Assembly: GCF_022374935.2 (NCBI RefSeq)
Contig: NZ_CP092430.2
Coordinates: forward strand, 3,286,001 to 3,350,000
Length of the DNA stretch: 64,000 nucleotides
Reading direction: 5' to 3'
Source of the DNA: Mycolicibacter virginiensis
GTDB taxonomy: Bacteria > Actinomycetota > Actinomycetes > Mycobacteriales > Mycobacteriaceae
Made by a program: the position numbers and the translations under genes. Below, piece by piece: positions 40,475-59,552 of the stretch; positions within the stretch are counted from its first letter, which is position 1; each line of letters opens with the position of its first letter. A model generated the notes under the pieces. It was not told where the DNA came from, searched no databases, and was given only the letters and a program-made list of their open reading frames with translations.

Positions 40475-41950
40475 GTGACCACCATCAGCACCCCGCGTTA
40501 CCTGCTCGACCAGGCAAAACGCCGGTTCATCCCGACCATGAACACCATCCCCGGGATGGGATTGCTGGAAAAGCGGCTGATGACGGTTGACTGGCCACAG
40601 CGGACGCTGGCCACGCCGCCGCCGGGCAGCGACCTGAAGCCCATTGTCGGCGACTCGGGACTGCCGCTGCTGGGTCACATCGTCGAGATGTTCCGCCAGG
40701 GACCTGACTTCCCGCTGCACCTGTACAACACCCGGGGGCCCATCACGTTCGCCGATTCGCCCATCCTGCCGTCGATCGTCGCGCTGGGCCCCGACGCCAC
40801 CCAGACGATCTTCACCAACAAGAACAAGGACTACTCACAGAAGGGCTGGCTCCCGGTCATCGGGCCGTTCTTCAACCGCGGCCTGATGATGCTGGACTTC
40901 GACGAGCACATGGGCCATCGGCGGATCATGCAGTCCGCCTTCACCCGGCCCCGGCTGGCCAGCTACGTCGAGGACATCGACCGGGTGGCCTCGGCGATCG
41001 TCGCCGACTGGCCCACCGACGACGGCCGTTTCCTGGTGTATCCGGCGATGAAGGAATTGACCCTCGACGTCGCCTCGGTGGTGTTCATGGGCCACGAGCC
41101 GGGCAGCGACCACCAGCTGGTCACCAAGGTCAACCGCGCATTCGAGCAGACCACTCGGGCCGGCGGCGCGATCATCCGGACCGGCTTGCCGCCGTTCAAG
41201 TGGTGGCAGGGTCTGCAGGGCCGCAAACTGCTGGAGGACTACTTCGCCGAGCGGGTCAAAGAGCGTCGTAAGGCCGAGGGCACCGACATGCTGACCGTGC
41301 TGTGTCATACCTCCGACGAGGACGGCAACAGCTTCTCCGACGCCGACATCGTCAACCACATGATCTTCTTGATGATGGCCGCCCACGACACCACCACTTC
41401 GACGGTGACCACGATGATCTACCACCTGGCCGCGCACCCGGAGTGGCAGGAGCGGGCGCGCGACGAGTCGACGCGGCTCGGCGACAGCCCGCTGGACATC
41501 GAGTCGCTGGAGAAGCTGGAGACCCTCGACCTGGTGATGGACGAGTCCCTGCGGCTGGTGACGCCGCTGCCGTTCAACATGCGCCAGACCGTGCGCGACA
41601 CCGATCTGCTGGGTCATTACGTACCGGCCGGCACCAACGTGGTCACCTGGCCCGGCATGAACCACTGGCTGCCCGAGCTGTACACCAACCCACGCCAGTT
41701 CGACCCGGAGCGCTTCCTGGAGCCGCGGTCCGAGCACAAAAAGCACCGCTACGCCTGGGCGCCGTTCGGTGGCGGGGCGCACAAGTGCATCGGGATGGTG
41801 TTCGGCCGCCTGGAGGTCAAGACGGTGCTGCACCGGCTGCTGCGCCAGTACCGGATTGAGCTATCCCACCCGAACTACACGCCACGCTGGGACTACGGCG
41901 GAATGCCGATCCCGATGGACGGTATGCCGATCGTCCTGCGCCGGCTCTAA
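40475..41950 (+). CDS. cyp136: cytochrome P450, CYP136-like, copy 1
   Basis: 491 residues; GTG with GAGGAG 5 nt upstream. I-helix MMAAHDTTTSTVTTMIYHL, ExxR in MDESLRLVTP and heme loop FGGGAHKCIGMVFGRLE with ligand C438. Placement next to SDR and TetR genes is that of M. tuberculosis cyp136 (Rv3059). The protein and its upstream region are closely similar to the next gene, showing tandem duplication. The electron donor is not encoded nearby. Substrate unknown; a lipid or sterol is plausible. Confidence 0.88.
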   Translation: MTTISTPRYLLDQAKRRFIPTMNTIPGMGLLEKRLMTVDWPQRTLATPPPGSDLKPIVGDSGLPLLGHIVEMFRQGPDFPLHLYNTRGPITFADSPILPSIVALGPDATQTIFTNKNKDYSQKGWLPVIGPFFNRGLMMLDFDEHMGHRRIMQSAFTRPRLASYVEDIDRVASAIVADWPTDDGRFLVYPAMKELTLDVASVVFMGHEPGSDHQLVTKVNRAFEQTTRAGGAIIRTGLPPFKWWQGLQGRKLLEDYFAERVKERRKAEGTDMLTVLCHTSDEDGNSFSDADIVNHMIFLMMAAHDTTTSTVTTMIYHLAAHPEWQERARDESTRLGDSPLDIESLEKLETLDLVMDESLRLVTPLPFNMRQTVRDTDLLGHYVPAGTNVVTWPGMNHWLPELYTNPRQFDPERFLEPRSEHKKHRYAWAPFGGGAHKCIGMVFGRLEVKTVLHRLLRQYRIELSHPNYTPRWDYGGMPIPMDGMPIVLRRL

Positions 41951-42050: not shown

Positions 42051-42120
42051 ATTTGACCCGACGATGATGAGAGGACATGTGACGGGTACCACAACCCGAC
42101 TGCGCCGTTAAGGAGTGTCT

Positions 42121-43599
42121 GTGGCAACCATCAGCACCCCGTGTTACCTGATCGACCAGGCCAAACGTCGGCTCACTCCGTCCTTCAACAACTTCCCGGG
42201 CATGGGGGTGCTGGAAAAGCGCCTGCTCAACATGGAGTTCCCCGAGAAGAGACTCGCCGAGCCACCCGCGGGCAGCGGACTTGAGCCGGTCCTCGGCGAT
42301 GCCGGGCTACCGATCCTCGGGCACATGATCGAGATGCTGCGCGGCGGACCGGACTACCTGATGCGCATGTACCACACCCACGGCCCGGTGCTGTTCGGTG
42401 ATTCGCCCATCTTGCCGGCCGTCGCGGCGCTGGGTCCCGATGCGACGCAGGTCATCTACGCCAACCGCAACAAGGACTACTCGCAACAGGGCTGGGTCCC
42501 GGTGATCGGGCCGTTCTTCAATCGGGGTCTGATGCTGCTGGACTTCGAGGAACACATGTTCCATCGCAGGATCATGCAGGAGGCGTTCGTACGGCCGCGC
42601 CTGGTCGGCTACGTCGAGCAGATCGACCGGGTCGCTTCCCAGGTGATCGCCAACGATTGGGTCACCGACGACCCGCGCTTCCTGCTCCACCCCGCGATGA
42701 AGGAGCTAACCCTTGACATCGCCGCGCTGGTGTTCATGGGGCACGAACCCGGTACCGACCATGAGCTGGTCACGAAGGTCAATAAGGCGTTCACGACGAC
42801 GACCCGGGCCGGCAACGCGGTGATCCGCACCAGTGTGCCGCCGTTCACCTGGTGGCGTGGCCTCAAGGCGCGTGAGCTGCTGGAGACCTACTTCACCGCA
42901 CGGGTCCAGGAGCACCGCGGCAAGGAAGGTAACGACCTCCTCACCGCACTGTGCTACGCCGAGGACGAGGACGGCAACCGGTTCTCCGACACCGACATCG
43001 TCAACCACATGATCTTTTTGATGATGGCCGCCCACGACACGTCGACGTCCACCGCCACATCGATGGTCTACAACCTGGCGGGCAGTCCGGAATGGCAGCA
43101 ACGCTGCCGCGACGAATCGGATCGCCTGGGTGACGGGCCGCTCGACATCGAATCTTTGGAGAAGCTGGAATCGCTCGATTTGGTGATGGACGAATCGATC
43201 CGGCTGGTGACACCGGTGCAGTGGGCGATGCGCCAGACGGTCCGCGACACTGATCTACTGGGCTACTACATCCCCGAAGGCACCAATGTCATCGCCTACC
43301 CCGGCGTAAATCACCGTCTTCCCGAATTGTGGACGAATCCAATGAAATTCGACCCAGAACGGTTCACCGAGCCGCGTAGCGAGCACAAGCAGCACCGCTA
43401 CGCGTTCAATCCGTTCGGCGGCGGCGCGCACAAGTGCATTGGTATGACGTTCGGCCGCCTCGAAGTCAAGGCGATCGTGCATCGGCTGCTGCGCCGGTAC
43501 CGGTTGGAGTTGCCGTACCCCGGCTATCAGACACGCTGGGACTATGGCGGCATGCCCATTCCGATGGACGGGATGCCGATCGTGTTACGCCGGCTCTAG
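42121..43599 (+). CDS. cyp136: cytochrome P450, CYP136-like, copy 2
   Basis: 492 residues; the GTG at 42121 is preferred over 42115 because AAGGAG lies 6 nt before it, as in copy 1. Motifs: MMAAHDTSTSTATSMVYNL, ExxR in MDESIRLVTP and FGGGAHKCIGMTFGRLE with ligand C439. The C-terminal 20 residues match copy 1 exactly (DYGGMPIPMDGMPIVLRRL). Differences are concentrated in the first 60 residues, residues 225-300 and the region after ExxR, so substrate preference may have shifted. M. tuberculosis has only one cyp136. Confidence 0.87.
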   Translation: MATISTPCYLIDQAKRRLTPSFNNFPGMGVLEKRLLNMEFPEKRLAEPPAGSGLEPVLGDAGLPILGHMIEMLRGGPDYLMRMYHTHGPVLFGDSPILPAVAALGPDATQVIYANRNKDYSQQGWVPVIGPFFNRGLMLLDFEEHMFHRRIMQEAFVRPRLVGYVEQIDRVASQVIANDWVTDDPRFLLHPAMKELTLDIAALVFMGHEPGTDHELVTKVNKAFTTTTRAGNAVIRTSVPPFTWWRGLKARELLETYFTARVQEHRGKEGNDLLTALCYAEDEDGNRFSDTDIVNHMIFLMMAAHDTSTSTATSMVYNLAGSPEWQQRCRDESDRLGDGPLDIESLEKLESLDLVMDESIRLVTPVQWAMRQTVRDTDLLGYYIPEGTNVIAYPGVNHRLPELWTNPMKFDPERFTEPRSEHKQHRYAFNPFGGGAHKCIGMTFGRLEVKAIVHRLLRRYRLELPYPGYQTRWDYGGMPIPMDGMPIVLRRL

Positions 43600-43634
43600 T
43601 GCCAGCAGCCTTTCATTCGCCGAGCAGACGCAGA

Positions 43635-44102
43635 TTACCCGGTGGTCAGCAGCCGGTTGACGCACGTGACGACGGCATCGACGGCCGAGGCCGCGGCGTC
43701 GGGCGCGAAGCCCACCGCCCACGCCGCTGCCCGGCCGTTAGAACCGTGGATGAACGTCGCCGTCTCGGCGCCGCAGCCGAGCTGATGAAATCCTAGAATT
43801 TCCAGCGTGATTCCACGTTCGTACAGCATCTCGGTCAATGCGGCCAGCGGGCCGTGCGCCGCTGCGGTGCAGGTGCCGGTCCGGTCTCCGATGGCAATCG
43901 TCGCCTGATAGGTCCGGCCCTGGAGCCCCAGCCGTGCCGCAGAACGATCGGCGTCCAGGCAGCGCCAGCGGCCCAGTCTCAGCGGCCCGGCACAGCGCCC
44001 GTAGCTTGCCACGAAGCCATCCCAGGTGAGCTGGGCGCCCGGGTCGCGCAGTTCACGCGGTAGTCGGGTGTCGAATCGGTCTGCGAAGGATGTGTTGGCC
44101 AT
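43635..44102 (-). CDS. stand-alone LeuA regulatory (allosteric) domain protein
   Basis: 155 residues. The C-terminal 95 residues resemble the leucine-binding regulatory domain of 2-isopropylmalate synthase: TCTAAAHGPLAALTEMLYERG, LEILGFHQL and AAASAVDAVVTCVNRLL correspond to the GPIDA, DYHEH and ASLKAVVSAVNRA segments of actinobacterial LeuA. The catalytic barrel is absent. It may bind leucine or interact with LeuA. The start has no clear ribosome site. Upstream, an attenuator-like leader (44149-44221) with a Leu/Val-containing peptide suggests that branched-chain amino acids control it, which agrees with the domain assignment. Confidence 0.75.
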   Translation of the reverse strand: MANTSFADRFDTRLPRELRDPGAQLTWDGFVASYGRCAGPLRLGRWRCLDADRSAARLGLQGRTYQATIAIGDRTGTCTAAAHGPLAALTEMLYERGITLEILGFHQLGCGAETATFIHGSNGRAAAWAVGFAPDAAASAVDAVVTCVNRLLTTG

Positions 44103-44148
44103 TGTGCGGTCTTTTCTGCTCGAAGAGAGCGACCGACGGGAGTAGCTT

Positions 44149-44188
44149 CCGACCCACAGCGGGGGGTCGGTCTGGATCAGACCCCGCT
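44149..44188 (-). promoter_or_regulatory. mutually exclusive hairpins (attenuator-like)
   Basis: On the minus strand two hairpins can form. A: arms within 44188-44158, with GGTCTG-ATC-CAGACC at its tip and AGCGG/CCGCT at its base. B: CCGACCC-n8-GGGTCGG at 44170-44149. They share 44158-44170 and exclude each other. The first arm of A lies in the last codons of the leader peptide. No U-tract follows B. Folding was done by eye. Confidence 0.55.
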
Positions 44189-44221
44189 GCGGGTTTCGGC
44201 TACTACAACTAGATAACGCAT
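44177..44221 (-). CDS. leader peptide with Leu/Val control codons
   Basis: A 14-codon frame, MRYLVVVAETRSGV, ATG at 44221 and TGA at 44179-44177. Codons 4-7 are CTA-GTT-GTA-GTA, that is Leu-Val-Val-Val, and three of the four are A-ending codons rare in such a GC-rich genome. The ATG is only about 4 nt from the predicted transcription start. The stop codon lies in the hairpin region. This is the layout of ribosome-mediated attenuation: stalling at Leu/Val codons would favour hairpin A and block hairpin B. The controlled gene is the LeuA regulatory domain protein 75 bp downstream. Confidence 0.6.
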   Translation of the reverse strand: MRYLVVVAETRSGV

Positions 44222-44231
44222 AGTGTCACCA

Positions 44232-44261
44232 AGGCTAATAGCGCGCCCGCTGGACGCGCAA
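44232..44261 (-). promoter_or_regulatory. promoter of the leader/LeuA-domain gene
   Basis: Minus strand TTGCGC (44261-44256), 18-bp spacer, TAGCCT (44237-44232). The start of transcription should fall near 44225, just before the leader-peptide ATG at 44221. It lies 30-60 bp after the stop of the PoxB-like gene. Confidence 0.5.
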
Positions 44262-44291
44262 CGCATTTATGGACTGGCGTCGAGATCGATA

Positions 44292-46028
44292 TCAATTCAA
44301 GATGCGGCGGGCCACGTTGGTGGTCACCAGGTCCAGCAGTTCGTCGCTGCGACCGGCCAGGATGGTCCGGATCGCGTAGAGCGAGAAGCCTTTGGCCTGT
44401 TCCGCGGTGATCGCTGGTGGGATCGACAACTCCTGGCGGGCCGTGACGACGTCGACGACGGCTGGCCCGTCGTGGGCAAACGCCTCGGTCAGCGCCGCCT
44501 CCAGATCAGCCGGATGCTCCACCCGACGGCCGAACATACCCAGCGCGGTGGCGACGGCGCCGAAGTCCGGATTGTCCAACTCGGTACCGAAGTTGACGAT
44601 CCCGGCGGCCTTCATCTCCAGTTCGACAAAATTCAGTGACGAATTGTTGAACACGATCACCTTGACCGGCAAACGATTCTGCGTCAGGGTGAGCAACTCT
44701 CCGAACAGCATCGCCAGCCCACCGTCACCGGCCAATGCGACCACCTGCCGCTTCCGGTCCACCGACTGGGCGCCGATCGCGTGTGGCAGCGCACATGCCA
44801 TGGTGCCGTGGTTGAACGACCCGATCAATCGCCGTCGTCCGTTCATGGTCACGTAGCGTGCCGCCCATACCACCGGGGACCCGACGTCGACGGTGAACAC
44901 CGCGTCATCCGAGGCCAGCCGATTAGCAACCGCAGCAACATATTCGGGACGTATCGGCGTGCGGTCGCGATCGTTGGACGCCAGCGAGTCGAGTCGCTGG
45001 CGGGTCTTGCGGTAGTGCTTCAGCGACCTTTCCAGGTGGCTGCGGTCGTTCTTGTTGGCCAGCAATGGCTGCAAGGCGGTGACGGTGTCGGCGACCGTGC
45101 CGAGCAGTCCGAGATCGATCGGAGTACGTCGGCCCAGGTTTCGACCGCGAATATCGACTTGAATGATCTGCGCACGATCGGGATAGAACTGCTGGTAGGG
45201 AAAGTCGGTGCCGAGCATCAGCAACACGTCGGCTTCCCGGATCGCCTTATATCCGGACGCAAAACCGAGCAGTCCCGTCATACCGACGTCGTAGGGATTG
45301 TCGTACTCGATGTACTCCTTGCCGCGTAACGCATGCACGATCGGCGCCGCCAGGATATGCGCCAGTTCCATCACCTGGTCATGGGCGCCGGCGACCCCCG
45401 CACCGGCCAAAATGGTGACGTTGGCGGCGGCGTTGAGCATGGCCGCGGCCGCTCGCAGTCCCTGCTCGTCGGGGCAGCAGACCGATCCGGTGGGTCGCAC
45501 CGGACGCGCCCCCCAGGCGGTCTCGTCGAGACGGTGGCCGAAGATCTCGCCCGGCACCACCACGACGGCGACGCCGTTCTCCTCCACCGCCGCACGCATG
45601 GCCAACTCCAGGATCCGCGGCGCCTGCTCGGGAGTGCTGACCAACTCGCAGTAGACGCTGCACTCACGAAACAGGTTCTGCGGATGGGTTTCTTGGAAGT
45701 AGTCGGAGCCGACCTCGGCCAGCGGGATATGGGCGGCGATCGCCAGCACCGGCACCCGGCTGCGCTGCGCGTCGAACAGGCCGTTGATCAGGTGCAGGTT
45801 GCCCGGTCCGCAACTGCCGGCACACACCGCCAAACCACCGCGCAGCGCCGCCTCCGCGGCGGCCGCGAACGCGGCGGTCTCCTCGTGGCGCACCTGTTCC
45901 CAGCCGAAGTCACCGGCCCGGCGGATCGCATCGGTAAGCCCGTTGAGGCTGTCGCCCGGTATCCCGAAGATGCGCTGCACCCCGCTGCGCTTGAGGACGG
46001 CAATGACATGGTCTGCGACGGTTGCCAT
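44292..46028 (-). CDS. poxB: thiamine-diphosphate enzyme, pyruvate oxidase/dehydrogenase (quinone)-like
   Basis: 578 residues. N-terminal TPP-binding part with FGIPGDSLNGLTDAI and the cofactor-activating glutamate in RHEETAAFAAAAEA; the central domain (IVHALRGKEYIEYDNPYDVG) and the C-terminal GDGGLAMLFGELLTL...FNN stretch, the GDG-NN signature that binds Mg-TPP. The order and the absence of acetolactate-synthase features favour the PoxB group (pyruvate to acetate with quinone or O2). The C-terminal membrane-binding segment of E. coli PoxB is not obvious. Gene symbol is by family. It precedes the LeuA-domain gene and follows fadE22 by 60 bp. Confidence 0.8.
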   Translation of the reverse strand: MATVADHVIAVLKRSGVQRIFGIPGDSLNGLTDAIRRAGDFGWEQVRHEETAAFAAAAEAALRGGLAVCAGSCGPGNLHLINGLFDAQRSRVPVLAIAAHIPLAEVGSDYFQETHPQNLFRECSVYCELVSTPEQAPRILELAMRAAVEENGVAVVVVPGEIFGHRLDETAWGARPVRPTGSVCCPDEQGLRAAAAMLNAAANVTILAGAGVAGAHDQVMELAHILAAPIVHALRGKEYIEYDNPYDVGMTGLLGFASGYKAIREADVLLMLGTDFPYQQFYPDRAQIIQVDIRGRNLGRRTPIDLGLLGTVADTVTALQPLLANKNDRSHLERSLKHYRKTRQRLDSLASNDRDRTPIRPEYVAAVANRLASDDAVFTVDVGSPVVWAARYVTMNGRRRLIGSFNHGTMACALPHAIGAQSVDRKRQVVALAGDGGLAMLFGELLTLTQNRLPVKVIVFNNSSLNFVELEMKAAGIVNFGTELDNPDFGAVATALGMFGRRVEHPADLEAALTEAFAHDGPAVVDVVTARQELSIPPAITAEQAKGFSLYAIRTILAGRSDELLDLVTTNVARRILN

Positions 46029-59479: not shown

Positions 59480-59552
59480 TGGAGCTAAGGGGACTCGAAC
59501 CCCTGACCCCCACACTGCCAGTGTGGTGCGCTACCAGCTGCGCCATAGCCCC
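59480..59552 (-). tRNA. tRNA-Ala (anticodon GGC)
   Basis: 73 nt on the minus strand. The acceptor stem GGGGCTA/TAGCTCC contains the G3-U70 pair that identifies alanine tRNA. The D arm is GCGCAGCTGGTAGCGC, the anticodon arm is CCACA-CTGGCAG-TGTGG with anticodon GGC, and the T arm is GGGTTCGAGTCCC-like. CCA is not encoded. It reads GCC codons, the most used alanine codon in this GC-rich genome. Confidence 0.95.

Follow-up and report, generated by a model that had tools for sequence, protein, structure and literature searches.

Our analysis suggests that a short leader on the minus strand of the Mycolicibacter virginiensis genome is paralogous to the LEU element of actinobacterial leuA and retuned from leucine to valine codons, and that it controls the translation of a gene for a stand-alone LeuA regulatory domain, a reading that we consider fairly probable. 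Comparison of sequences establishes the leader, its structures, their conservation, the homology to leuA leaders and the change of codons. Translational attenuation by the charging of valine (branched-chain amino acid) tRNA would be the best model of how the leader works. An earlier note had read the same DNA, from its letters alone, as a Leu/Val attenuator forming a circuit without precedent; its observation is confirmed and its interpretation is partly supported. The window, i.e. the whole stretch of 64,000 nucleotides that was analysed (contig NZ_CP092430.2, positions 3,286,001 to 3,350,000), carries the following features, in window coordinates.

44107 to 44261, minus strand: leader and overlapping helices (44261-44107), preceding the 155-aa gene
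44256 to 44261, minus strand: -35-like box TTGCGC, read directly from the sequence
44232 to 44237, minus strand: -10-like box TAGCCT (TANNNT)
44177 to 44221, minus strand: leader uORF of 14 codons, MRYLVVVAETRSGV and a stop, starting near the expected transcription start
44201 to 44212, minus strand: control codons CTA GTT GTA GTA (Leu Val Val Val), codons 4-7 of the uORF
44139 to 44206, minus strand: base stem P1, GTAGTAGC (44206-44199) with GCTACTCC (44146-44139), 7 of 8 pairs in the window
44152 to 44194, minus strand: hairpin P2, ACCCGCAGCGGGG with CCCCGCTGTGGGT
44131 to 44172, minus strand: pseudoknot, GACCGAC (44172-44166) with GTCGGTC (44137-44131)
44149 to 44170, minus strand: alternative hairpin, CCGACCC with GGGTCGG, exclusive with both P2 and the pseudoknot
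44107 to 44135, minus strand: sequestor, CGGTC (44135-44131) with GACCG (44111-44107)
44110 to 44117, minus strand: Shine-Dalgarno-like AGAAAAGA, with the sequestor beside or over it
43635 to 44102, minus strand: stand-alone LeuA regulatory-domain protein of 155 aa, assigned by fold, with no catalytic barrel

The leader region lies in the gap from 44292, where a gene for a ubiquinone-dependent pyruvate dehydrogenase ends, to the 155-aa gene. No sigma-70 consensus is found at the locus. Boxes similar to the TTGC one were seen by eye, uncounted, in many relatives, and a TANNNT box lies 6-10 nt 5' of an in-frame ATG or GTG in all 68 unique leaders, a count for which the chance level was not computed; hence the uORF probably starts at or next to the 5' end of the transcript. 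Leaderless ORFs are described as common in mycobacteria (PMC4633059). The gene neighbourhood was dropped as a clue to function, since the upstream flanks of the other loci, judged by eye and not annotated, look different from the pyruvate dehydrogenase gene of the window. Two tandem similar frames (40475-41950 and 42115-43599) adjoin the stand-alone gene on the opposite strand; the one at 42115-43599 is a cytochrome P450 (PF00067), and the other resembles it by eye. Rfam at its gathering cut-off reported one tRNA and no leader family in the whole window, the tRNA gene lying at 59480-59552 on the minus strand, and at E up to 10 over 43900-44500 it returned two miRNA models, far under their own cut-offs. 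Neither the leader nor the gene is named in any title or abstract start that we found in the open-licence PMC literature.

The product of the downstream gene has the fold of the LeuA regulatory domain (PF08502; PDB 1sr9/3fig) and no catalytic barrel, which LeuA (2-isopropylmalate synthase) possesses, and the gene is indeed, as had been noted, a LeuA regulatory domain alone. Its PF08502 score is 18.3 bits, under the Pfam gathering value of 24.9. The fold matches ranked below LeuA and LiCMS (RAD52, ribosomal proteins and dsRBD) were taken as common arrangements. Compared with LeuA, one loop is four residues shorter, a loop taken to be the ligand lid of LeuA, and the LeuA motif GNGPL is partly kept, its Asn being lost. 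Existing records, where they name the gene at all, call it homocitrate synthase, 2-isopropylmalate synthase or hypothetical protein. The protein may be a free allosteric subunit. Leucine binding by it, assumed in the earlier note, is putative, as is a feedback on leucine synthesis through it, which is plausible.

Orthologues were gathered by protein similarity, giving 18 loci in genome contigs, and the 60 genus genomes, among them that of the window, yielded a match in 54 cases and none in six (G003, G015, G025, G029, G032 and G044). The closest named relative is M. heraklionensis 1211594.5 (L006), with 98% protein identity. Among the 72 loci aligned, two (L049 and L078) were dropped at contig ends, and the 70 with sufficient upstream DNA reduce to 68 unique leaders, the window included, once duplicates are removed. 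The leader is present at all 70; orthologous leaders lacking the peptide or the hairpins, which would have spoken against the earlier note, were looked for and not found. In other genera 28 of the 30 loci examined carry the leader, e.g. with the peptide MKRLLVVHRRSGV followed by a stop; the remaining two (L187 and L188), whose leaders have diverged and offer no anchor, were dropped from the counts. These two come from small genomes of Corynebacterium-like size, and their leaders, MQTNILKRVAKATNPGGG.. and MQKNIRLRRVAEATNPGGG.. respectively, have no Val run, each uORF retaining one GTA codon by eye.

Relatives of the gene were found by protein search in 180 of 251 family genomes, covering 26 of 31 genera, and the frames among the matches listed in this search are shorter than 300 aa except for one of 531 aa (G079). 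Among 197 class genomes 14 matched, 13 of them inside the family; the single match outside is a 662-aa frame that we read as LeuA and not as the stand-alone gene. Absences are not firm calls because the search scored only the best candidates of each genome, e.g. G064 was missed at 1e-20 in the family search and recovered in the class-genome search. An exact motif for the commoner form of the leader, from which the leader in the window departs, occurs in 92 of the 251 family genomes; when reversed, it occurs in none. All 75 motif matches with a gene among the matches listed lie 76-362 nt (median 126) upstream of that gene and share its strand; the other 17 of the 92 have no corresponding gene among the matches listed. 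A coincidence, with a chance ORF and chance hairpins in unconstrained intergenic DNA, is scarcely credible against these motif counts, the leader at 70 of 70 loci, and the covariation and covariance-model (CM) homology to leuA leaders described below.

A uORF rich in branched-chain codons, of 14 codons in the window, is conserved at all 70 loci, and its codons point to valine. GTAGTA occurs in all 68 Mycobacterium leaders, including the 22 in which P1 is imperfect. The uORF is 13-18 codons long in these leaders and differs by whole codons with the frame kept; the distance from GTAGTA to the stop is 24 nt in 36 leaders and 27 nt in 32, always in frame. In the 96 leaders counted, at least one GTA is found in every leader and Leu is absent from nine. 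The Val codons 5' of P2 in these 96 comprise 180 GTA and 18 GTT among 217, compared with nine of each among the 208 Val codons of six window genes. Of the Leu and Val codons that the earlier note pointed to, Val GUA is thus the one that no counted leader lacks, and Leu is not. In four deep leaders (L164, L166, L179 and L184) the uORF stops early at CCG-TAG. The peptide thereby loses RSGV, whereas the RNA is retained, and the conserved 3' part is therefore RNA in these leaders. From such sequence patterns we take the 5' part of the uORF to be conserved as codons and its 3' part as RNA. In one further leader (L178) extra P2-strand bases abolish the stop codon of the uORF, which then shares the reading frame of the main gene; this is either a true fusion or a sequencing error.

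The mutually exclusive hairpins proposed in the earlier note hold up, as both rival folds covary. P2 is matched by a covariance model at 44152-44192 with E=4.9e-8 across the window, the next match having 0.044. The pseudoknot has 7 of 7 pairs in all 68 leaders, and its downstream strand GUCGGUC sits 39-44 nt past the uORF stop in all 68. P1 was counted by script because alignments A1 and A2 misregistered its 5' strand; in the best register, with G-U allowed, all 8 of its pairs can form in 46 of the 68 leaders, 7 in 20 and 6 in two, and pairing of 8 of 8 arises in 1.3% of shuffles.

Covariation was counted in two alignments with members chosen by the authors: A5, of 25 stand-alone and 20 leuA leaders, and A4, of 14 of the 68 Mycobacterium leaders and 25 of the 28 others (L169, L170 and L176 being omitted for no substantive reason). 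Over the 45 leaders of A5, pairing in P2 plus the pseudoknot amounts to 99.8%. Doubly changed cells number 55, compared with 21.3 after shuffling (reached in 0 of 500 shuffles), and these 55 represent few events in many rows because most of them mark the split between the paralogue groups. The 39 stand-alone leaders give 7 such cells against 2.0. For the alternative hairpin, 94.8% paired in the 39 leaders, there are 6 against 1.1 (0 of 500). Both the score for covariation and the number of doubly changed cells exceed all 500 shuffles in each of the three counts, and two of the five measures, doubly changed pairs and pair types, fail to clear the shuffles in each count, their values being reached in 58 and 500 of 500 shuffles (45 leaders, P2 and pseudoknot), 79 and 79 (39 stand-alone leaders) and 43 and 316 (alternative hairpin).

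The sequestor is 89.2% paired in the 39 leaders with GGUC/GACC largely kept, and shows no covariation beyond shuffles in these 39 diverse leaders; it has only 5 contiguous pairs in the window. The best 7-mer partner of GUCGGUC at the main start is perfect in 43 of 68 leaders compared with 4.1% of shuffles, and pairs at 5 of 7 positions in the window. The predicted energies of the pseudoknot duplex and the sequestor hairpin are comparable, at -10.8 and -12.0 kcal/mol in the window, and their medians over the 68 leaders are -10.8 and -12.4 kcal/mol. RNAfold, which allows no pseudoknots, predicts nearly equal access to the Shine-Dalgarno-like site whether or not a ribosome sits on the leader, and a switch would therefore have to depend on the pseudoknot. 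When 12 leaders were folded with a ribosome placed on the first Val codon, the authors read P2 in the lowest-energy fold of 7; with the ribosome on the second, they read it in 5 of the 12, one in shortened form.

The kinship with leuA is seen when the search is run from the other side. The genome has three LeuA genes (L053, L054 and L055, at 2842000-2850500, 4511500-4519000 and 484000-491500 of the genome), all full-length and each preceded by a leader of the form (M/V)QRVLLLxRRDGV and a stop. The other two LeuA proteins are 94% and 91% identical to that of L054; by eye, one leuA locus lies near a recombinase-like frame and another near a methyltransferase-like frame. Four other genomes of the 60-genome genus sample have two matches each, and two genomes carry a second type of LeuA (L138 and L139, 52-53% identical) with a LEU-type leader, whose pseudoknot strand CGGTCG also matches, by eye, a CGACCG that lies next to an AAGG motif ahead of the start. 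A covariance model trained on 20 leuA leaders and on no stand-alone leader finds four loci under E=0.1 in the whole genome, namely the three leuA leaders and the stand-alone leader, the latter with E=3.9e-6 and the next match at 0.12 (150 of 9958 first-look candidates scored). As a model built from leuA leaders alone finds it, we regard the stand-alone leader as a paralogue of the actinobacterial LEU element, and the circuit loses the novelty first claimed for it. Stand-alone and leuA leaders can be aligned end to end, and the pseudoknot known from the LEU element is found here too, between the P2 loop and a downstream strand, covarying with the leuA leaders. The pattern used to collect leuA leaders demanded two CTN codons side by side. 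Of 64 loci, several of them overlapping, 46 fitted it and 18 were missed; the leaders found have three consecutive Leu codons. The published element has a uORF, a pseudoknot and an alternative hairpin (Seliverstov et al. 2005, PMC1262725), and our equating of the genome's leuA leaders with it rests on the text of that paper, not on its figures.

A rather unlikely alternative is that this LEU-type RNA is read by a binding protein, or autoregulated by the regulatory-domain protein, with the uORF codons kept mainly as RNA. The helix segments are indeed nearly invariant, as the complete pseudoknot of all 68 leaders illustrates, and the conservation of GTA has two possible causes because the GTA bases also build P1, so that codon and pairing are partly confounded. 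The codons, however, changed between the paralogues while P2 and the pseudoknot did not, GTA and GTT together make up 198 of the 217 Val codons, the 24- and 27-nt spacings differ by one whole codon, and GTAGTA persists where P1 is imperfect. To our knowledge LeuA control domains have no RNA-binding role. In favour of a protein reader, Seliverstov et al. (PMC1262725) argue against classical attenuation and propose a helicase-like partner for the LEU element of leuA. They considered leader-peptide attenuation unlikely, left the LEU mechanism open in 2005, and reported that codon changes in S. coelicolor leuA misfit classical attenuation.

For the favoured reading, valine sensing by translational attenuation, we infer ribosome stalling, the direction of the switch, the translational level, where transcription starts and what the protein does. 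Transcription would start at or just ahead of the uORF, which a ribosome would translate. When charged Val-tRNA is short the ribosome would stall at the rare GUA codons and would leave most of P2 and its loop free, so that P2 could form; the loop sequence GACCGAC could then bind GUCGGUC as the pseudoknot, and the hairpin at the Shine-Dalgarno-like site could not close. When valine is plentiful the ribosome at the UGA, with a footprint of 26 nt assumed as in PMC13236596, would cover the 5' strand of P2 and reach GACCGAC, and GUCGGUC would instead pair with GACCG near the main ribosome site, turning the gene off. A shortage of charged valine tRNA thus probably switches the gene on.

The same exclusive hairpins, classical in form, might instead act on transcription, the state of the ribosome choosing between P2 with the pseudoknot and an RNA that undergoes termination, whether through Rho or at the alternative hairpin, and M. 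tuberculosis ilvB1 is described as a transcription attenuator (PMC13236596). We consider this distinctly unlikely, as no intrinsic-terminator-like site was found at 43600-44350, no U-run follows the alternative hairpin in the window sequence, and the strand complementary to the pseudoknot strand adjoins the start codon in most leaders. Translational control therefore fits better than termination, no U-tract terminator being seen at 43600-44350.

The stand-alone leader can be regarded as a natural codon swap, in which the LEU RNA architecture carries rare valine codons and precedes another gene. If the leuA and stand-alone leaders answer leucine and valine respectively, codon sensing would be strongly supported; if they respond alike, a protein reader would be favoured. 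The analysis also draws attention to a widespread gene with variable record names. We tentatively speculate, as a possibility that we hold with some doubt, that a duplicated LEU element became a valine-charging sensor for a free LeuA-type allosteric subunit, through which the supply of valine (or ketoisovalerate) sets the restraint on leucine synthesis, and that this was kept across most genera of the family. HisZ, the regulatory protein of ATP phosphoribosyltransferase, is an earlier case of an enzyme in an amino-acid pathway that is served by a separate allosteric protein; HisZ has its partner enzyme, whereas a partner of the stand-alone protein is hypothetical. The fold of HisZ is unrelated to the LeuA regulatory domain.

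Compared with known leaders, the LEU element and the stand-alone leader both have a uORF whose end overlies the 5' strand of the main stem, together with P2 and a pseudoknot from loop to downstream strand. The LEU element has a Leu run and precedes the leuA operon, whereas the leader here has (Leu)-Val-Val with GUA and precedes a 155-aa free regulatory domain. The base stem of the LEU element pairs control codons with the Shine-Dalgarno box; in P1 here, by contrast, the partner of the Val codons is 44146-44139, a segment that precedes the pseudoknot strand, and no match of the control codons with the Shine-Dalgarno-like site was seen by eye in the window. The M. tuberculosis ilvB1 attenuator (PMC13236596) resembles the stand-alone leader in its uORF (Leu-Val-Val-Ile in ilvB1), its regulatory GUA codon and its exclusive structures, and differs in having a U-tract terminator and acting on transcription, no terminator being seen here. 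Replacing the four LVVI codons of ilvB1 with Ala abolished induction according to the same text, and such codon sensing therefore exists in mycobacteria. For M. abscessus, PMC4974804 describes ribosome footprints on a leuA uORF. The cysteine-responsive attenuation of M. smegmatis, as mentioned in PMC13236596, concerns a different amino acid and different genes, but its uORF reportedly acts on the downstream gene through translation, as we propose for the leader of the stand-alone LeuA regulatory domain.
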